NCBI GenBank assembly: GCA_947175665.1
Contig: CAMWNR010000006.1
Coordinates: forward strand, 1-49,583
Source: an uncultured Porphyromonadaceae bacterium
GTDB lineage: Bacteria; Bacteroidota; Bacteroidia; Bacteroidales; Muribaculaceae
DNA: 49,583 nt
Direction: 5' to 3'
Under the pieces are notes generated by a model. It was not told the origin of the DNA, did no database searches, and saw only the letters and a list, made by a program, of their open reading frames with translations. The translations under genes were made by a program, and so were the position numbers. Shown here in pieces: positions 8,429 through 49,583 of this stretch; positions within the stretch are counted from its first letter, which is position 1, and the number at the start of each line of letters is the position of its first letter.

Positions 8429-8995
8429 ATGAAAAAATATCTTATAGTAGGATTAGGCAATATAGGTCCTGAATATGTAGGCACACGCCATAATATCGGA
8501 TTTATGATTGCCGATGCTCTTGCAGACAGTATCAATGCCTCTTTCTCTTCATGCCGCTACGGTGACATGGCCAAGGGTAAAGTAAAAAATGCAGAATTGC
8601 TTATACTTAAGCCTTCCACATTTATGAATCTATCAGGGGTTGCCGTGAGATACTGGATGAATAAGGAGAAATTACCTCTCGAAAATTTACTCATTCTGGT
8701 AGATGATCTTGCATTACCTTTCGGTGCAATCAGATTAAGAAGTGGTGGTAGTGATGCAGGCCACAACGGATTGAAAAACATTGCATCAGAATTAGGAACA
8801 CAAAAGTATGCACGTTTGCGTTTCGGAATAGGACAGGATTTCCCTCGCGGAGGTCAGATAGATTACGTTTTAGGAAAATTTCCTAAAGATGAGATGGCAC
8901 AGATGCCTGAACGAATCGATATAGCAGTCGAGGCAATCAAGAGTTATGCGCTTAGCGGCCTCTCTTTTGCCATGACCCACTTTAATAATAAATAA
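8429..8995 (+). CDS. pth: Peptidyl-tRNA hydrolase
   Basis: Cleaves peptidyl-tRNAs released by stalled ribosomes, recycling tRNA. From the ATG giving [11 protein letters not shown] the protein is 188 residues, the normal family size, with Asn11, catalytic His21 in GTRHNIGF, the [14 protein letters not shown] motif carrying the catalytic Asp, and [14 protein letters not shown]. An in-frame ATG at 8321, overlapping the end of folE by 13 bases, would add 36 polar residues with no family counterpart. Translational coupling from that start cannot be excluded. A 10-bp repeat array begins right at its stop codon. Confidence 0.95.
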
Positions 8996-9060
8996 TCAAG
9001 ATTAATCAGATCAAATCAAGATAAATCAGGCCTAATCAGGCTAATCCCGACCAAATCAAA
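8994..9060. repeat. 10-bp phased repeat array, copy 1
   Basis: The pentamer AATCA (once AATCC) recurs at 8994, 9004, 9014, 9024, 9034, 9043 and 9054, a spacing of almost exactly 10 bases. Units resemble TAATCAAGAT or AAATCAGGCT. It lies between pth and the radical SAM gene. The same repeat type occurs at 30081-30182. Confidence 0.85.
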
Positions 9061-24621: not shown

Positions 24622-25464
24622 GTGAGAAATCTCCTGAATTTTCTTATCAGATACAGCACATGGTTCGTTTTTGCGATCTATGTGCTTCTGAGTTGTATAC
24701 TGCTCACTCAGCGTGATGATTATCATGCATCTGTCATGTTTTCGAGTGCTAATGCAGTGTCAGGGAGTGTATTCCGTAGCGCTTCGACGGTTACGGGGTA
24801 TTTCAATCTGCTCTCGATAAACCGGAGATTACAGGAGTCAAATGCCTCTCTCGAAAACGAGATTCTCAATCTGCGCAATCAACTCGCTGAGTATAAAGCG
24901 ATAGTATCTGATACCGTTGATGTAAGATCTGAGAGAAGATTTGACTATGTGCTTGCATCGGTAGTAAATAATTCCACCCGACACCCTAAAAATTACATTA
25001 CGTTAAATCGTGGTACAGAAGACGGTATTCAACCCGGCATGGGTGTAGTAGACCAAAGCGGTATCGTCGGTATTGTGAACGTAGCGGGTCCGCACACATC
25101 AAGAGTAATATCAGTACTAAACGAGACTCAGCATTTCTCGGTTAAACTCAAAGATACTCCATACGTAGGTTCGCTGCATTGGAAAGGGATGGATCCCAAC
25201 GTGGCATATATGGAGGAGGTACCCCGCCATGCCAAGTATAATATCGGTGATACTGTAGTAACATCCGGTTTCTCTACTACTTTCCCGTACGGTATTAATG
25301 TAGGAACGGTAATGAATAGGGTAAAACTATCTGACGACAATTTCTATGTATTAAAAGTGAAGTTATCGTCAGACTTCAAGGCATTATCTACCGTAAGAGT
25401 GATTAAAGATATTTACAAGGCCGAACTTGATTCGCTTACAAAGTTTGATATTATCACAGATTGA
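24622..25464 (+). CDS. mreC: Rod shape-determining protein MreC
   Basis: A periplasmic scaffold that links MreB to PBP2 and RodA. It starts at a GTG 10 bases after mreB and has 280 residues: one N-terminal membrane helix (about residues 11-28), a coiled coil near 60-95 (RLQESNASLENEILNLRNQLAEY, quoted in part as RLQESNASLENEI), and the double beta-barrel MreC domain with NRGTEDGIQPGMGVVDQSG and GDTVVTSGFSTTFPYGI. No ATG offers a better N-terminus. Directly after its stop lies a 50-bp dispersed repeat, and mreD starts only 190 bases later. Confidence 0.95.
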   Translation: MRNLLNFLIRYSTWFVFAIYVLLSCILLTQRDDYHASVMFSSANAVSGSVFRSASTVTGYFNLLSINRRLQESNASLENEILNLRNQLAEYKAIVSDTVDVRSERRFDYVLASVVNNSTRHPKNYITLNRGTEDGIQPGMGVVDQSGIVGIVNVAGPHTSRVISVLNETQHFSVKLKDTPYVGSLHWKGMDPNVAYMEEVPRHAKYNIGDTVVTSGFSTTFPYGINVGTVMNRVKLSDDNFYVLKVKLSSDFKALSTVRVIKDIYKAELDSLTKFDIITD

Positions 25465-25465
25465 A

Positions 25466-25515
25466 TAAGTAATTAAAATTTATGTGCATATAAAACTTCA
25501 ATATTTTTGAGATAA
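25466..25515. repeat. 50-bp dispersed repeat, copy 1 (between mreC and mreD)
   Basis: Nearly identical to 49534-49583 at the right edge of the window: TAAGTAATTAAAATT, TGTGCATATAAAACTT and TTTTTGAGATAA are shared, with about three mismatches over 50 bases. The core TTTATGTGCATATAAA is close to palindromic. The rest of the mreC-mreD gap (to 25654) is AT-rich, with one small hairpin, AAGATAT-AAA-ATATCTT, at 25535-25551. Known mre operons usually have little space here, so this looks like inserted repeat DNA. Confidence 0.8.
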
Positions 25516-30080: not shown

Positions 30081-30182
30081 TAAATCAAGATATTCAGCCC
30101 AAATCAAGATTAATCAAGATAAATCAGGCTAAATCAAGATTAATCCAGGCTAAATCAAGATAAATCAGCCTAAATCAAGCCA
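30081..30182. repeat. 10-bp phased repeat array, copy 2
   Basis: About ten units of a degenerate 10-mer (TAAATCAAGA, AAATCAAGAT, AAATCAGGCT and similar). AATCA starts at 30083, 30102, 30112, 30122, 30132, then AATCC at 30142 and AATCA at 30153, 30163 and 30173. The 10-base step keeps every unit on one face of the helix. It lies between the convergent XRE regulator and methyltransferase genes. Confidence 0.88.
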
Positions 30183-30191
30183 ACCACCGGG

Positions 30192-30803
30192 TTATAATTC
30201 ACCGGTAGCCCCATTACAAATACTGATTACGTATGCATCTTCGCTATCCTCAACCACTTTAGCATCGTACCCCCACCCGCAAATAGTTTTTGACAATTCA
30301 TACGCCCCCGGCAAACAATCGCTATCCGCCCCTCTGCTATGGTGGATTTCATTTATAAATTTCTCATCAGACGGGAATGCGATAATAATCTTTCCTCCCG
30401 GTTTGATATTAATTTTAAAAAGCCAGTCAATTGTATCTTTAGGGTAATGTAAATGCGGATACACTGAGTATAACAGTACAATATCATAATTACCCGGTAT
30501 TATCTGCTCCTCAAAATCTATCTTCAAGAACTCGACATTATTCAAAGATACATATTTACGCTTGGCTATCTCAAGCATACCATCTGACAAGTCAACACCA
30601 ACTATCTTTCCGTCAACTCCGACACGTTGTGATAAATATGGCACCAATACCCCTGTACCGGTACCTAAATCCAAAATATCCATACCCCTATCTATGGATA
30701 TTAAATCTAAAATATGATTTATACGTTGAGGAGTGGATCTAACTTCATTGTTATCCCACTCAGGCGCCAACATATCAAAAAATTCTATTTCCGAATCAGT
30801 CAT
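30192..30803 (-). CDS. Class I SAM-dependent methyltransferase
   Basis: A 203-residue Rossmann methyltransferase. SAM motif I is DILDLGTGTGVLVPYL at about residues 43-58, motif II is IVGVDLSDGMLEIAK, and motif IV-like DIVLLYSVYPHLHYP follows. This is the small Methyltransf_11/25 type that acts on small molecules, lipids or quinones; the substrate cannot be read from sequence. It is transcribed leftward, divergently from the TonB receptor gene, with promoters less than 60 bases apart, so the two may be controlled together. Its -7 box is TAATTTTG at 30832-30839 on the minus strand. Confidence 0.85.
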   Translation of the reverse strand: MTDSEIEFFDMLAPEWDNNEVRSTPQRINHILDLISIDRGMDILDLGTGTGVLVPYLSQRVGVDGKIVGVDLSDGMLEIAKRKYVSLNNVEFLKIDFEEQIIPGNYDIVLLYSVYPHLHYPKDTIDWLFKINIKPGGKIIIAFPSDEKFINEIHHSRGADSDCLPGAYELSKTICGWGYDAKVVEDSEDAYVISICNGATGEL

Positions 30804-34287: not shown

Positions 34288-34296
34288 GGGGGGGGG
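34288..34296. repeat. G9 homopolymer at a promoter
   Basis: Nine consecutive G in otherwise AT-rich DNA, about 22 bases before the -7 box at 34318. Its 3' end falls where the -33 box should be. Long G runs slip during replication and are a classic basis of phase-variable promoters. Confidence 0.7.
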
Positions 34297-34317: not shown

Positions 34318-34325
34318 TATATTTG
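34318..34325 (+). promoter_or_regulatory. -7 box of the pilus-like operon
   Basis: TATATTTG fits TAnnTTTG. No TTTG lies 19-21 bases upstream; that place is taken by the end of the G run and GTATTT. The start is expected near 34332, with a leader of about 78 bases. Confidence 0.55.
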
Positions 34326-34409: not shown

Positions 34410-36284
34410 ATGAAAAAATTTTTTCTTTATTCTTTTGCAACAGTCGGCCTGTTAGGGCTTGCCTCATGTGCACAGGAAGACGTTAACGCTCCCGTTAACG
34501 ATGGTGTTAATATCAAGGTTCGCCTTCCGCGCGACATGCAGACCCGCGGCTCTTTTGGCGACGGCACCGATGCAGGTGACCGTGCGATTCTCAACAATCT
34601 TCAGTGGTCTGTTTACGAGGTCGTGGATGGTGTAGCCTCCACCACTCCCGTCTTCTCTGATCTTAAAGCAGGTGCTTTCGGCGGCAGTCAGACCGAGGAG
34701 AATGTAACCCTCCCCCTTGCTAAAGGTAAAACTTATCAGGTGGCCTTTTATGCTGATGACAGCACTAACGGTTTTGTAACCTATGTTGACGGCAAAATCA
34801 ATGTTGATTACTCTAAGGCTTCTTCAAATACCGCGGCCGAAGATGCCTTTATCGGTCGCTCGGTTCAGTTTACTGTCGACGGTTCTTATAGCGAGACCGT
34901 AACCTTGACTCGTCCGTTTGCTCAGTTGAACTGGGGTACTGATGATTTTGAGGCTAAGGTACTCGGAGACCTTCTTAAATCACTTACCGCTTCAGTTAAA
35001 GTCAGCAGTGGTCTCTATTCTGCAATGGATGTTTTGAGTGGCGAAGTGGATGCGGCAACTGCAGTATCTGATGCTGTTGAATTCGGCACAGTGGCTTTCT
35101 CCACTCTTCCTGCACAGACTTTCCCTGTAGAGGGTTATTCACTCATCGCTATGAATTACCTTCTTACCGGTGACGGTACTATCGACTGCGAACTCGATTT
35201 TGATAACGGTCTGAAACCTGTAGTAGTTAATGCCGCTCCCGTACAGGTAAATCACCGCACTAATATCTACGGTTCTCTCCTTACCGCTCCCGCTGATTTC
35301 AATATCAAGGTTGACAACAACTTTGAGACTCCAGACAACAACATCGAGGCTACCGTAGTTGTTAAAACTCCCGAAGAACTTCTCGATGCTATCACTAATG
35401 CCCAGGATGGCGATGAAATCGAACTTGCTGCTGATATGACAATGCCTCTGACCGGCTATGTAGAACTCAGCAAGGATGTGACTCTTACAGTTCCTGAAGG
35501 AGTAACTATCACTACCGCTCGTCAGGGTAACACCGCTAACTTCGTGGTAAATCCCGGTGCTACCGTTACTTTGAAGGGTGAAGGCGCTTACGAAGGTGAC
35601 AACCGTATCTTTGACGTTGACGGCACTCTTGTAGTTGATGGTCCGTCGTTTACAACTTCTACCAAAACTCGCGGTTCCGCCATCACAGTAAATAACGGCG
35701 GAGCACTCACTTTCAAATCAGGTGAAATTACTGCAGCCAATACCGCTCTCTGGATTGAAGGTAAAGTAGAGATCGATGGCGGTGTTATCAAAAGCAATAA
35801 CTCCGCTTCAGATCCCGAAGTCGGTTCAGGCCAATGGGCATATTGCGTACGCCTGATGACAGAAGGTGCTGAGGTTACTATTAACGGTGGTGAAATTATA
35901 GGCGTACAGGGTGCTGTAGCCAATAAATCCGGTAAACTTACAATCAATGGCGGATATTTCCACACTCACCCGTCGTTCACTACTTCAGATAACTTCTACG
36001 CTCTTTATATCGGAGACGGTACAACAGGAAGCGAAACTACTGTTAACGGTGGTGAATTCTACTCTCAAAACAATTATGCCATTTATTATAATAAACTTCA
36101 GGCTGCCGGCTACCCGGAAAATGTACTCCACCTCAACGGAGGTAAGTTAAACAATCAGGGTCGTCAGGTATCTGTAGCCAATGGTGATACACCCGCATAC
36201 TCCGGTATAATTGAATTGTCAGCACCTTATACCTGGAAGCAGATTACCGACGGCAACTTCAAATATGAAGTTGTAGCCGAATAA
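34410..36284 (+). CDS. DUF6562 lipoprotein A with beta-helix head (pilin/adhesin-like)
   Basis: A 624-residue surface lipoprotein. The signal peptide ends in lipobox LASC (Cys20). An Arg at residue 46 in DMQTRGSF sits where type V pilins of this order are cut during maturation. Residues about 30-313 match my memory of the DUF6562 family (AILNNLQWSVYEV; VTLTRPFAQLNWG; RTNIYGSLLTAPADFNI), a pilin-like beta fold. Residues 314-624 are a repetitive right-handed beta-helix (VNNGGALTFKSGEI; VTINGGEIIGVQGAV; LTINGGYFHTHPSF). First gene of a four-gene operon. Its N-terminal module is duplicated in the fourth gene, with 306 bases identical. Whether it is a shaft pilin or a tip adhesin is unknown. Confidence 0.82.
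   Translation: MKKFFLYSFATVGLLGLASCAQEDVNAPVNDGVNIKVRLPRDMQTRGSFGDGTDAGDRAILNNLQWSVYEVVDGVASTTPVFSDLKAGAFGGSQTEENVTLPLAKGKTYQVAFYADDSTNGFVTYVDGKINVDYSKASSNTAAEDAFIGRSVQFTVDGSYSETVTLTRPFAQLNWGTDDFEAKVLGDLLKSLTASVKVSSGLYSAMDVLSGEVDAATAVSDAVEFGTVAFSTLPAQTFPVEGYSLIAMNYLLTGDGTIDCELDFDNGLKPVVVNAAPVQVNHRTNIYGSLLTAPADFNIKVDNNFETPDNNIEATVVVKTPEELLDAITNAQDGDEIELAADMTMPLTGYVELSKDVTLTVPEGVTITTARQGNTANFVVNPGATVTLKGEGAYEGDNRIFDVDGTLVVDGPSFTTSTKTRGSAITVNNGGALTFKSGEITAANTALWIEGKVEIDGGVIKSNNSASDPEVGSGQWAYCVRLMTEGAEVTINGGEIIGVQGAVANKSGKLTINGGYFHTHPSFTTSDNFYALYIGDGTTGSETTVNGGEFYSQNNYAIYYNKLQAAGYPENVLHLNGGKLNNQGRQVSVANGDTPAYSGIIELSAPYTWKQITDGNFKYEVVAE
34479..34784 (+). repeat. 306-bp direct repeat, copy 1
   Basis: Identical base for base to 38845-39150 (offset 4366), inside a longer collinear homology of about 870 bases (34479-35348 with 38845-39714) that elsewhere carries scattered, mostly synonymous, differences. 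The sharp edge from 100 percent identity to diverged sequence suggests a recent gene-conversion tract. Confidence 0.95.
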
Positions 36285-36352
36285 ATTATTGGAGTCAAAG
36301 GTCTCTAATTAATTCATTTTGGAGTTAACTAACTCAACCATAAAATCTACCC

Positions 36353-36385
36353 GGACACACTCGCTTCTCTAAAGTGAGTGTGTCC
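36353..36385 (+). promoter_or_regulatory. Intercistronic hairpin in the pilus-like operon
   Basis: GGACACACTCGCTT pairs with AAGTGAGTGTGTCC, a 14-bp stem with one G-U pair and a short loop, 69 bases past gene A. What follows (TCAACATCC) is not U-rich, so it looks like an mRNA-stability or attenuation element rather than a full terminator. A weaker stem, CATCCT with AGGATG (36390-36412), then encloses the start codon of the next gene. Confidence 0.65.
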
Positions 36386-36409
36386 TCAACATCCTTTAAA
36401 TTTCACAGG

Positions 36410-37693
36410 ATGCGACATCTCGAAAAACTTTTTATCGGACTTATCACTACCGTTGTAGTCAGCGCAACGCAGGCTATGGCCACTCCGTCGTTGTCTTCAT
36501 CTTCGGGGGGTGGTGACTCCGAGATAACCGAAAGTATCTCAGGCACTCAATATTTCCCAAGAAGTGTATCGACAATAAAGAATATCTCATCCGATCTTCG
36601 CAATCTGGCTCATAGCGTGGATTCTTTATATCGTATACGACAGATTGACTCACTCCTCATAAGTGGCAACAGTTCTCCCGATGGTCCGGGCATCTTCAAC
36701 CGGAATCTTGCCCTCGATCGCGCTAAAAGCGTGTATAATTATATTAACTTCGCCACTTCTATGCCGGATTCTCTTATGAGAGTCTCTTCTCACGCATGTA
36801 ACTGGGCTGATCTTAACATTCTCCTTACATCGCGCGATTGGTCAAGACCCTCTGCTGCCTCCGAGGCAATCCGTATTATCAATAATGGAGGCAAAAATAT
36901 TGTGGCCAACCTGCGCTCTGCCAATAAAGGTGAGTTATGGAGGTGGCTTGATGCCGAAGTGTTCCCTCTTATGAGAGCCACTTCAGTCATCGCTTTCTAT
37001 GAGACTGATCCGATTAATCTCACTCCGGAGATTCCAATGTATGAAGTTATAGAACCGGAACCGGATTGTGAGGTGATTGAAAACATAAATTACGAAGAGA
37101 TTAACCCTGTTGATGATGTTGTTGATGATTCCCCTTGGCGCCGCTATATCTATGTTAAAACAAACCTCCCTGCGTGGCTCTGTCTATGGATGAACGCTGC
37201 AGTTGAAATCGACATCACGCCTCATCTCAGTGCCACACTTCCAATATATTACTCCGGTTTTAACTATTTCAGCCGTACTTTAAAATTCCGTACTTTCGCC
37301 ATTCAGCCTGAGTTACGTTTCTGGCCCCAAAAGGATAATCATGGTTTCTTTGTAGGTGCTCACTTCGGTCTGGCATATTATAATGTGGCTCTGAATGGTG
37401 AGAACCGCTATCAAGATCATGATGGCAACACCCCTGCTCTCGGAGGTGGTGTAGCAATCGGTTGGAGATTCCGCCTAAACTCAAATCCTGATCTAACTAT
37501 GGAGGCCACGATAGGCGGCGGTATATACAGTCTGGATTATGATATATTCCATAATTGGACCAACGGACTTCTTACAGGTCGCAAGAAACGTACATTTTAC
37601 GGTGTAGACCAGGCGGCGCTATCTATCACCTATCGTTTCGGTCTGCGTAAACGTAAAGTTGAAACGTCTGTGGAGAAAGGGGGTGACAGATGA
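36410..37693 (+). CDS. OmpA-like / DUF3575 outer-membrane protein
   Basis: A 427-residue exported protein. The signal peptide is MRHLEKLFIGLITTVVVSAT with cleavage near AMA. Residues about 75-200 resemble an OmpA-type domain (IDSLLISGNSSPDGPGIFN; LALDRAKSVYNYI). The C-terminal half is a DUF3575 beta-barrel (YIYVKTNLPAWLCLWMNAAV; FRTFAIQPELRFWP; GGGVAIGWRFRL; ALSITYRFGLRKRK). Such proteins accompany FimB/Mfa2-type loci in Bacteroidales and may anchor or assemble the fibre. I start at the ATG at 36410; an upstream GTG lies inside the intercistronic hairpin. The end overlaps the next gene by ATGA, so translation is coupled. Confidence 0.82.
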   Translation: MRHLEKLFIGLITTVVVSATQAMATPSLSSSSGGGDSEITESISGTQYFPRSVSTIKNISSDLRNLAHSVDSLYRIRQIDSLLISGNSSPDGPGIFNRNLALDRAKSVYNYINFATSMPDSLMRVSSHACNWADLNILLTSRDWSRPSAASEAIRIINNGGKNIVANLRSANKGELWRWLDAEVFPLMRATSVIAFYETDPINLTPEIPMYEVIEPEPDCEVIENINYEEINPVDDVVDDSPWRRYIYVKTNLPAWLCLWMNAAVEIDITPHLSATLPIYYSGFNYFSRTLKFRTFAIQPELRFWPQKDNHGFFVGAHFGLAYYNVALNGENRYQDHDGNTPALGGGVAIGWRFRLNSNPDLTMEATIGGGIYSLDYDIFHNWTNGLLTGRKKRTFYGVDQAALSITYRFGLRKRKVETSVEKGGDR

Positions 37694-38751
37694 TTATATT
37701 TATTAAAAGTATATGTAAAAATATATTGGCCATCGCCATTATTTGTATTGCCGGAATTGTTATGCAAAGTTGTGTTCATGAGTTTCCGGAAATTAACAAC
37801 AGTTTAAATGTACGCCTGAAAATATCTCATTATACAGATTGGACAGAATTTGATTACTTTATCGATAACCTGCCTGATACTCGCAAAACCCGTGCCGGAG
37901 ACAATAACTCCTGGCAGGCGCAATACGTAGTGGCAGTCTATGCAAAAGGTACCACATCCACCCCTGTAGAGCGTTATAGTTTCACCCGTGAAGATCTGAC
38001 ATTGGCTGATTTTGAAACTGAACTTTCACTCCCCGTGGGCGAATGGGATATTTATGTTTGGCAAGATTTTGTAAATCAGAATGTTGACCCCGCGTATTAT
38101 AATTCATCCGATTTCAAAGCCATAACTTATGAGAAGCCTTATCGAGGTGACACCAACATGCGCGACGCCTTCGAAGGTAAAACCTCTGTCAAAGTTCCTG
38201 AAACAATTGAAGCGGATTATGTCGTGACCGGTGAGATCGTAATGGAGCGACCTCTGGCAAAATATGTATTTATCGCTACTGATTTTGAGGAATTTTACAA
38301 TGACTCTATGACAAGATTCCAACTCCCGGTAGAGAAAAATGCAAGTTCCGATCCTAACTCTGTCGCTCAGCAAAGGGAGCCTCTGACCGGATTCTCGGTT
38401 GTGGCTAAATATCCCTGGTATATGCCGGCAGTATATGATATGTTTTCACAAAAGGTTACCGATTCCTGGACAGGTATGTATTACGATGCCCTTATCAATC
38501 CTATCAGTAATACTGAGGCTGTAATTGCATCCGATTATGTATTTATAAACCACCATGAGAGTGGTGCCCAAGTCCAACTCGGTATGCGTACACCCGATGA
38601 CGCTATTATCGGCCTTACCTCAACCATCAATGTACCGCTTTTGCGTGGACGTATTACTTACGTGCGCGGACGCTTCCTCACTGCATCCACCGGAAGCGGA
38701 CTCGAAATCGATTTCTCTTTTTCAGGTAGTTTTGACATTTTAATAAAATAA
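37690..38751 (+). CDS. FimB/Mfa2-like fimbrial anchor lipoprotein
   Basis: A 353-residue lipoprotein with an N-terminal membrane stretch and lipobox MQSC (Cys28). The beta-rich body resembles FimB/Mfa2 anchors: LNVRLKISHYTDWTEFDYFI, the segment LPVGEWDIYVWQDFV, repeated beta strands such as RPLAKYVFIATDFEEFY, and the C-terminal RGRITYVRGRFLTASTGS. In Porphyromonas the Mfa2 anchor caps the base of the fibre in the outer membrane and limits its length. Here it overlaps the DUF3575 gene by four bases and is followed after 24 bases by DUF6562 lipoprotein B. Similarity to FimB/Mfa2 is by pattern, not checked by search. Confidence 0.75.
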   Translation: MIIFIKSICKNILAIAIICIAGIVMQSCVHEFPEINNSLNVRLKISHYTDWTEFDYFIDNLPDTRKTRAGDNNSWQAQYVVAVYAKGTTSTPVERYSFTREDLTLADFETELSLPVGEWDIYVWQDFVNQNVDPAYYNSSDFKAITYEKPYRGDTNMRDAFEGKTSVKVPETIEADYVVTGEIVMERPLAKYVFIATDFEEFYNDSMTRFQLPVEKNASSDPNSVAQQREPLTGFSVVAKYPWYMPAVYDMFSQKVTDSWTGMYYDALINPISNTEAVIASDYVFINHHESGAQVQLGMRTPDDAIIGLTSTINVPLLRGRITYVRGRFLTASTGSGLEIDFSFSGSFDILIK

Positions 38752-38775
38752 GTAATATCTAATTTATTTATCAAC

Positions 38776-40476
38776 ATGAAAAAAATTGTTTATCCCCTGC
38801 TCGGTATGGCCGGTTTGATCGGACTTGCCTCATGTGCACAAGACGACGTTAACGCTCCCGTTAACGATGGTGTTAATATCAAGGTTCGCCTTCCGCGCGA
38901 CATGCAGACCCGCGGCTCTTTTGGCGACGGCACCGATGCAGGTGACCGTGCGATTCTCAACAATCTTCAGTGGTCTGTTTACGAGGTCGTGGATGGTGTA
39001 GCCTCCACCACTCCCGTCTTCTCTGATCTTAAAGCAGGTGCTTTCGGCGGCAGTCAGACCGAGGAGAATGTAACCCTCCCCCTTGCTAAAGGTAAAACTT
39101 ATCAGGTGGCCTTTTATGCTGATGACAGCACTAACGGTTTTGTAACCTATACTGATGGCAAAATCAATGTAGACTACTCTAAGGCCGCTTCAAATACTGC
39201 GGCCGAAGATGCCTTTATCGGGCGTTCGGTGCAGTTTACTGTCGACGGTGCTTACAGCGAGACCGTAACCTTGACTCGTCCGTTTGCTCAGTTGAACTGG
39301 GGTACCGATGATCTTGAGGCTAAGGTACTCGGAGACCTCCTTAAATCACTTACCGCTTCAGTAAAAGTCAGCAGCGGTCTCTATACTGCAATGGATGTAT
39401 TGAGTGGCGAAGTTGATGCTGCAACTGCTGTATCTGATGCTGTTGAATTCGGTACAGTGGCTTTCTCCGCTCTTCCCGCACAGACTTTCCCTGTAGAGGG
39501 TTATTCACTCATCGCAATGGATTACCTTCTTACCGGTGACGGTACCATCGACTGCGAACTCGATTTTGATAACGGTCTGAATCCTGTAAGTGTAAACGCT
39601 GCACCTGTTAAGGTAAATTACCGAACTAATATCTATGGTTCTCTCCTTACCGCTCCCGCTGATTTCAATATCAAGGTGGACAACAACTTTGAGACACCGG
39701 ACAATAATATCGAGAATAAGGATATACCGAAGTGGGATGGTACTCAAGAGGAAGTCACTCCTGAGGATGGTGTTTATACTGCAAATACTCCCGCTCAACT
39801 TGCTTATCTTGTAAACAATCTCAAAGGTGCTGATGCCCTCACTGCAAAGACCATCAATATCACTTCTGATATGGATTTCTCGGGTCAGGACTGGACTTCA
39901 AACACCATCTCTGCTAACCTTGATACCGGTGCTACCTTTACTTTCGATTTTAACGGCCACACAATTTCCGGTCTGAACAAAGCATTTTTCGATAGATTTG
40001 TAGGTAATATCAAGAATGTTACTTTCATTAACTGCAATATCGAAGGCACTACAAATGAAAATGGTTTCAGTGGAGTAGTCTGCAATAACCTCTATGGCAC
40101 TCTCGAAAATGTCAAGGTTGAAAATTCTACTATTACATGCACCGGTACAGGTCGCAGTGTAGGTGCAATTGCCGGACAGTACACTTCAGGTAATGCATCT
40201 AACTGCGCGGTGAGCGAAATCACTATCAACAAGGCCACCGATTACAAAGCAGGCGGAATGTTCGGATCGGTAAATCAGGAATCTAACCCCCGTGTATTTA
40301 CCAACCTGTCAGCGAGCAATGTTACCATCAACGACGATAATGGTAGTTATGTAGGCGCGCTTATAGGCCGTGTATATGGCTGCAACCTTACTCTCACCGG
40401 TTGCTCAGTTACCAATAGTAGCCCGTCAGCACTTTACGGTGCTACTGCCGGGGGCGGAACTGTTACAGAAAATTAA
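38776..40476 (+). CDS. DUF6562 lipoprotein B with a different beta-helix-like head
   Basis: A 566-residue lipoprotein. The signal peptide differs from that of A, but the lipobox LASC (Cys20) and the Arg46 site are the same. Residues 24-313 are collinear with A without gaps and nearly identical. After NNFETPDNNIE the sequence changes completely: a linker (WDGTQEEVTPEDGVYTANTP), then GLUG-like repeats with a beta-helix look (FDFNGHTISGLNKAFFD; SVGAIAGQYTSGNASNC; YVGALIGRVYGCNLTLTGCS). It ends AGGGTVTEN. Last gene of the operon, before a strong terminator. It is probably an alternative or minor subunit sharing the polymerisation module with A. Confidence 0.8.
   Translation: MKKIVYPLLGMAGLIGLASCAQDDVNAPVNDGVNIKVRLPRDMQTRGSFGDGTDAGDRAILNNLQWSVYEVVDGVASTTPVFSDLKAGAFGGSQTEENVTLPLAKGKTYQVAFYADDSTNGFVTYTDGKINVDYSKAASNTAAEDAFIGRSVQFTVDGAYSETVTLTRPFAQLNWGTDDLEAKVLGDLLKSLTASVKVSSGLYTAMDVLSGEVDAATAVSDAVEFGTVAFSALPAQTFPVEGYSLIAMDYLLTGDGTIDCELDFDNGLNPVSVNAAPVKVNYRTNIYGSLLTAPADFNIKVDNNFETPDNNIENKDIPKWDGTQEEVTPEDGVYTANTPAQLAYLVNNLKGADALTAKTINITSDMDFSGQDWTSNTISANLDTGATFTFDFNGHTISGLNKAFFDRFVGNIKNVTFINCNIEGTTNENGFSGVVCNNLYGTLENVKVENSTITCTGTGRSVGAIAGQYTSGNASNCAVSEITINKATDYKAGGMFGSVNQESNPRVFTNLSASNVTINDDNGSYVGALIGRVYGCNLTLTGCSVTNSSPSALYGATAGGGTVTEN
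38845..39150 (+). repeat. 306-bp direct repeat, copy 2
   Basis: Exact counterpart of 34479-34784. Same orientation, 4366 bases apart. Recombination between the copies would delete the DUF3575 and FimB/Mfa2-like genes and join the A promoter and signal peptide to the B head. Confidence 0.95.
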
Positions 40477-49508: not shown

Positions 49509-49533
49509 AATATTGTGATTTAAGATGATTAAG

Positions 49534-49583
49534 TAAGTAATTAAAATTAATGTGCATATAAAACTTAAAGATTTTTGAGATAA
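49534..49583. repeat. 50-bp dispersed repeat, copy 2 (window edge, may continue)
   Basis: Matches 25466-25515 with about three mismatches and is cut by the window end, so the true element may be longer. Here it lies 25 bases upstream of a leftward gene; copy 1 lies just downstream of mreC. Confidence 0.75.

Follow-up and report, generated by a model that had tools for sequence, protein, structure and literature searches.

An identical 306-bp tract in two predicted pilin-fold lipoprotein genes of a Muribaculaceae bacterium points to recent gene conversion

Introduction

Why do two surface lipoprotein genes that differ in much else share 306 bp without a single mismatch? The question is raised by genes A and B, which stand at the two ends of a putative fimbrial operon in an uncultured Porphyromonadaceae bacterium assigned to the Muribaculaceae (assembly GCA_947175665.1, contig CAMWNR010000006.1). 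The window, meaning the whole stretch of DNA analysed here, is 49,583 nucleotides long; it comes from a draft genome of 166 contigs, and our comparisons use one genome per species. A first-pass annotation had read the shared block as the trace of a recent gene conversion. Our analysis upholds this as the most likely explanation, given the sharp-edged tract of zero divergence, the retention of both loci and the exclusion of chance, and we hold with good confidence that A and B are pilus-type adhesin subunits with a common N-terminal module and different C-terminal modules, between which about 306 bp were recently copied.

An identical tract with sharp edges

Positions 34479-34784 and 38845-39150 agree at every base, in a maximal match of 306 bp at an offset of 4366 that cannot be extended by a single base on either side. 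The block holds 0 synonymous differences over 73.3 synonymous sites, which bears out the earlier statement that the identity extends to silent positions. On its 5' side the signal peptides differ, as had been noted, and on its 3' side differences restart at the first base beyond it. The homology then continues to about 35348 in gene A and 39714 in gene B, with the many silent changes that had been described: 34.7 synonymous differences over 134.2 sites in these 564 bp, that is, a synonymous divergence (dS) of 0.317 and a nonsynonymous divergence (dN) of 0.032. Beyond it lie C-terminal parts with no mutual match. Genes A and B are modular in architecture and fall into distinct strata of divergence (Table 1).

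The identity of the block is not due to chance. Inside the block none of 100 degenerate codons shows a synonymous difference, whereas 34 of the 185 that follow it do (Fisher p = 1.5e-7), and at the rate seen outside the block the probability of finding no synonymous difference within it is 3e-10. When the 72 differences were permuted over 939 bp, the longest identical run was 192 and none of 50,000 permutations reached 306; without the signal peptide (48 differences, 870 bp, again 50,000 permutations) the longest run was 225. At 95% confidence the block's true divergence is at most about 1% of sites. A search of the source genome's assembly found two copies of the block and no third, at assembly level, where a minority deletion or circle is not addressed.

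Gene conversion accounts for these observations: the tract of zero divergence is internal and sharply bounded, with diverged signal peptides on one side and diverged homology on the other, and both loci are kept, each with its unique flanks, namely distinct upstream sequence and a distinct C-terminus. Homologous recombination between the two direct repeats would have copied about 306 bp of the module from one gene into the other, sparing the older part of the module (8.5% diverged), both C-terminal modules and both signal peptides. The copied part encodes the segment after the lipobox, the site of a conserved arginine and the first predicted core strands, which, if assembly follows that of type V pilins, is what other subunits should meet. 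Conversion would then preserve the fit between two subunits of the same pilus and leave their display modules free to differ; if the copied stretch matters for assembly, compatibility would presumably be the benefit of the exchange.

Weighing the alternatives

The identity might instead be old, if selection at the level of DNA or RNA on the 5' part of the gene had fixed its synonymous sites. In three control pairs dS is indeed lower in the region equivalent to the block than in the rest of the module (0.475 vs 1.162, 0.118 vs 0.347 and 0.518 vs 0.699), but the lowest value over all control pairs is 0.118 and never zero, the A/B differences resume immediately 3' of the block, and the orthologues of gene A in genomes G084 and G051 are not slower in this region (0.118 vs 0.093). 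Of the two orthologous pairs tested, the block region thus evolves as fast as the rest in this one and more slowly in the other (0.475 vs 1.162), and because it keeps pace with the rest in one of two pairs, synonymous constraint is insufficient as an alternative and we consider it very unlikely. Much the same low standing belongs to a module replacement, in which a recent gene duplication would have been followed by a swap of the signal peptide and the C-terminal part. C-termini and modules do have different histories in some pairs, with 76% vs 37% identity between G026 and G074 and 64% vs 34% between G001 and G033, but unless a second event is invoked this leaves unexplained why the last 564 bp of the module have a dS of 0.32 and the first 306 bp none.

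An assembly artefact, in which two similar repeats were merged and one consensus was written twice, is improbable as well. The genome is a draft, copies of the module break contigs in a relative, and short-read assembly might mask a few differences inside the block; yet both copies lie in one contig with unique flanks, the adjoining stratum of 8.5% divergence was kept separate, with differences from the very next base, and merging could have removed a few differences at most. Shuffling by inverted repeats was considered and rejected, since the window contains no inverted repeat of at least 40 bp (14-base seed); no recombinase was recognised among ten proteins of the window that were scanned, a sample of the window and not a full survey of it.

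Several observations weigh against gene conversion between pilus subunits as the explanation. Across 59 modules the minimum number of genome-label changes is 27 when the tree is built from the block region, 28 when it is built from the remaining sequence and 27 for the whole module, and the lower dS of the block-equivalent region in three of the four control pairs could mean mild constraint rather than recurrent conversion. Close module pairs in two relatives (G064 C27/C66 and G033 C1/C31) have weakly related C-termini, at 28-29% identity. To these must be added the draft state of the assembly, the weak sequence link of the module to FimA and the low structural scores described below. Concerted evolution of the block region throughout the family found no support, as 27 against 28 label changes give no sign of extra homogenisation.

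Gene conversion remains the explanation we favour for the block, and the tract adds a further example to a known class of events. In Porphyromonas gingivalis, surface proteins have been described as subject to allelic exchange and gene conversion (PMC5266723), where homologous recombination likewise reshapes Bacteroidales surface genes; the exchange treated in that source is mainly between strains, whereas here it would link two paralogous genes of a single genome, separated by 4.4 kb. The tract suggests how the assembly module of a pilus family may be kept constant as the display modules drift apart, in a gut family that is represented here almost only by metagenome assemblies.

The operon and the predicted structure of its products

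Open reading frames (ORFs) and domain matches confirm the order gene A, DUF3575 gene, DUF6562 gene, gene B, with direct repeats 4366 apart flanking the two middle genes (Table 1). The assignment of the former to DUF3575 stands, by its match to PF12099 (E 1.1e-28); the ORF list also offers an earlier in-frame GTG at 36374. The second gene had been called FimB/Mfa2-like, a name that does not hold: it matches DUF6562 (E 3.8e-60) and no FimB or Mfa2 model at E <= 0.01. Its product is a probable anchor or accessory subunit. We found no paper on DUF6562 in the open-licence literature searched.

Table 1. Features of the operon and of its upstream region, with positions in the window
Feature	Position	Strand	Basis or remark
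G9 homopolymer tract upstream of gene A	34288..34296	+	the window's only G/C run longer than 6
TATATTTG, match to Bacteroides -7 box	34318..34325	+	consensus TAnnTTTG; G9 ends 21 bp before
Gene A, 624-amino-acid lipoprotein; predicted pilin-fold N-terminal module, C-terminal module with weak beta-helix matches	34410..36284	+	ORF, weak DUF6562 match, model and fold search
Gene A signal-peptide region	34410..34478	+	24 differences in 69 bp against gene B
Identical block, copy 1	34479..34784	+	codes for post-lipobox stretch, conserved TR site and beginning of predicted pilin-fold module
Gene A module remainder, homologous but diverged	34785..35348	+	48 differences in 564 bp against gene B
Gene A C-terminal module	35349..36284	+	no blastp match to that of gene B at E <= 1e-5
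Intercistronic RNA hairpin, 14 bp, gene A to DUF3575 gene	36353..36385	+	no T tail; folding z-score -7.9
DUF3575 outer-membrane protein gene	36410..37693	+	ATG start; PF12099 E 1.1e-28, scanned from 36413
DUF6562 lipoprotein gene	37690..38751	+	PF20200 E 3.8e-60
Gene B, 566-amino-acid lipoprotein; same module, different beta-rich C-terminal module	38776..40476	+	ORF, domain scan, model and fold search
Identical block, copy 2	38845..39150	+	exact match to copy 1
Gene B module remainder, homologous but diverged	39151..39714	+	compared with 34785-35348
Gene B C-terminal module	39715..40476	+	no mutual match with that of gene A

Both proteins carry the lipobox LASC (read by eye), and residue R25 of the mature protein is conserved in at least 90% of 46 aligned family members. 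In the AlphaFold models of A and B (mean predicted local distance difference test, pLDDT, 82.4 and 85.5) an N-terminal strand is followed by a low-confidence loop that holds this arginine and then by a beta-rich core, which a low-confidence linker joins to a C-terminus that is also beta-rich; the predicted template modelling scores (pTM) of 0.55 and 0.63 mean that the relative placing of the domains is unsure. In Foldseek searches of the PDB at E <= 0.001, all 27 chains matched by the product of gene A belong to fimbrial or adhesion proteins of Bacteroidales, with Mfa2, FimA and Mfa4 among them, and so do 27 of the 28 matched by that of gene B, with Mfa2, FimA and Mfa3 among them, the exception being a chain of an IgA1 protease. 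Template modelling scores (TM-scores) normalised by query length are at most 0.32, low because the module alone is covered. From these models we accordingly predict a pilin fold of the Bacteroidia kind (type V) for the N-terminal module of both proteins. The next matches of gene A are weak ones to polysaccharide-lyase structures (7o78 and 6kfn, E 0.04), which we take to be beta-helical, and these matches are in keeping with a beta-helix. At the sequence level the 46 aligned modules bear the Pfam names DUF6562 (44), Mfa2 (5), CBM_4_9 (4) and FimA (1), and the module profile reaches FimA of known structure at E 0.006.

Type V pili polymerise by strand exchange. The products of this operon resemble the type V pili of Bacteroidia (FimA/Mfa1 of P. 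gingivalis and relatives) in having lipoprotein subunits with an N-terminal strand and a conserved arginine before a beta-rich core, in their predicted fold, and in an operon with accessory genes. They differ in that most modules are named DUF6562 (44 of 46 members) and that A and B carry a large separate C-terminal module fused to the pilin-like part; their assembly would follow the type V route by analogy. The fimbrillins of type V pili are lipoproteins that Arg-gingipain cleaves (PMC11316588), and from homology and predicted structure we infer a pilus role and possible cleavage at the conserved arginine for A and B.

Between gene A and the DUF3575 gene lies an RNA hairpin, which may raise the output of gene A over that of the downstream genes. 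Hairpins occur in the same gap in all four relatives with a single A gene upstream whose gap was folded, though weaker there (z -2.5 to -3.2); the hairpin sequence is common to G084 and G051, and that of G026 is partly similar.

The module family in related genomes

The module is present in 19 of the 150 genomes searched, the source genome included, with up to 15 matches per genome. In a first pattern scan of contigs with the gene A module, 71 stretches matched the pattern and none was confirmed as a relative. Our family survey covered 40 stretches, drawn from all but one of the 18 other module-bearing genomes. In 18 of these stretches, representing 14 of these 17 genomes, one to seven module genes stand behind a DUF3575 gene and a DUF6562 gene. 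G026, G060, G084 and G051 resemble the window in having one additional module gene immediately 5' of the DUF3575 gene, and G023 has two upstream of it. The two accessory genes were seen in none of 14 stretches of G064 and in one of six of G033, several of these stretches stopping at contig ends.

In the tree A and B are sisters (99/93), with contig C83 of G064 as the next branch. The corresponding genes of G026, G084 and G051 belong to old, separate A and B groups, and those of G060 share one clade with both modules of G074 and a third module of G060.

Modules and C-termini have partly separate histories, as judged from pairwise comparison. Similar modules occur with no C-terminal match in G064 C106/C92 (84% amino acid identity), G064 C13/C97 (67%) and G001/G080 (63%), and, where 101-113 residues were assembled, in G033 C31/C4 (92%) and C1/C4 (89%). 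The reverse, distant modules with similar C-termini, is seen in the G026/G074 and G001/G033 pairs cited above, and in some pairs, such as the A orthologues of G084 and G051, module and C-terminus go together. The three-part profile of A and B is repeated in G064 C106/C92, with about 50% identity in the signal peptide, 80-98% in the module and about 25-45% in the C-terminus.

In G033, contigs C12 and C1 open with an identical 55-bp sequence that lies within the module, and the first 55 bp of C31 recur within the gene on C4; we read these contig starts as shared 5' sequence that an assembly with k = 55 (our guess at k) failed to resolve. The C12 fragment has no C-terminus in frame. Behind the genes of G033:C17 and G023:C27, which have the N-terminal domain only, no hidden C-terminal part was seen by eye in three frames over 1.2 kb downstream, so the module may form a complete subunit by itself.

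Homopolymer tracts at promoters

Upstream of gene A, a run of nine G residues precedes a match to the Bacteroides -7 consensus TAnnTTTG (PMC7366714), and slippage-driven phase variation of the operon is plausible on sequence grounds. The source genome (G000) has six places with at least nine G on either strand, this tract among them. Another, on contig C65 (L112 5535-5587), is a contig-end homopolymer of 53 bases as assembled, a length that is probably inflated; it ends 22 bp short of a -7 box, and a second DUF3575 gene lies downstream. A neighbouring protein matches the Mfa1 model at E 1.3e-7, below the model's cut-off. On contig C38 (L109 5214-5222) a nine-base G/C tract lies in a type III methylase gene with a res-like gene adjacent, and the N-terminal part and the DPPY motif of the methylase are in different frames on either side of it, an arrangement similar to that of known phase-variable methylases. 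The remaining three places (C1, C99 and C132) have no clear link to a fimbrial operon. Poly-C tracts also stand at the promoters of the Bordetella fim genes, which are alike in having a homopolymer at a fimbrial promoter; Bordetella belongs to another phylum, and the promoter of the present operon is of the Bacteroides type and known here as a single tract length from sequence.

The arrangement recurs in the genus. At least nine G residues 12-40 bp before TAnnTTTG were found in 28 of 101 genus genomes, the source genome included (35 raw hits, 31 distinct sites), against seven raw hits in four genomes for a reversed control. The version with nine C residues gave 20 raw hits at nine distinct sites in eight genomes, some with very long and perhaps inflated tracts, against two raw control hits. 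The gap between G tract and -7 box is 16-21 bp at 16 of the 29 G sites whose loci were analysed (P = 5e-5, for a bin picked after seeing the data). In an order-level search with a tighter pattern, nine of 198 genomes matched: all three from the window's family, one of them G000, and six of the 195 from other families, while the reversed control gave four hits, none in the window's family. The signal therefore appears to lie mainly in the window's family, which had only three genomes in this search.

Genes behind these promoters were assessed at 28 of 38 loci, three loci having no ORF and seven being left out. Half of them (14 of 28) look surface-exposed or secreted, comprising six DUF3575 genes, four with a TonB-receptor plug and four other likely cases (Big_2, peptidase C10, SusF_SusE and BspA-type LRR). 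Several of the tracts with at least nine G stand 5' of DUF3575 genes or of genes for SusC-type receptors. Four are not obviously surface genes (two sugar nucleotidyltransferases, SufBD and an acyltransferase), and ten have no convincing family.

Around DUF3575 genes the runs are concentrated near the start. Among 27 named loci, seven of nine G/C runs of at least 8 fall in a zone that reaches from 500 bp before the start of the match to 100 bp beyond it and makes up 3.7% of the sequence (P = 3e-9). These seven come from six loci, two of which appear to be the G074 and G081 loci met again, and at the other 21 no near-gene run was seen. A genus-wide search for DUF3575 (30 loci, 26 of them orientable) similarly placed seven of nine runs in the zone from 400 bp before the assumed start to 60 bp beyond it, which covers 13% of the sequence (P = 2e-5), with at least two sites that overlap the genus survey of G tracts and -7 boxes. 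In G074 and G061 (L067 8607-8619 and L052 2367-2375) poly-C lies directly 3' of the signal peptide of the DUF3575 gene, and signal peptide and DUF3575 domain, read by eye, are in different frames as assembled; L088 and L103 have poly-C at the same place near the DUF3575 start. Many such operons carry no tract: of 20 operon heads read, five have a run of at least nine and one a run of seven, and no homopolymer run was found upstream of the operon in G084, G051, G026 or G060.

For phase variation in Bacteroides, DNA inversion is the mechanism named in PMC11868660 and PMC11892184, and among the titles and abstract openings listed in searches of open-licence literature none concerns poly-G promoter switching in this order. 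Our results lead us to suggest, tentatively and as a view slightly more apt to fail than to hold, that the locus is one outlet of a slippage-based surface variation in Muribaculaceae. Operons for type V pilus-like structures, along with other surface genes, would be switched by poly-G just before Bacteroides-type promoters or by poly-C just after DUF3575 signal peptides, and recombination in the pilin module would keep subunits compatible during the exchange of display modules. The homopolymer promoters may matter more than the conversion tract, and together with the modular pilin setting they make the locus worth following; if poly-G slippage does switch fimbriae, SusC-type receptors and other surface proteins in this family, tract lengths in existing deep metagenomes could be used to check it.

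Other repeats in the window

Further repeats were noted elsewhere in the window. They comprise a 40-bp tandem repeat array at 2736-2975, two arrays of related short AATCAAGAT-type repeats 21 kb apart (8974-9057 and 30082-30196), and a 57-bp repeat at 91% identity (25459-25515 and 49527-49583), the second copy of which lies at the window's very end.

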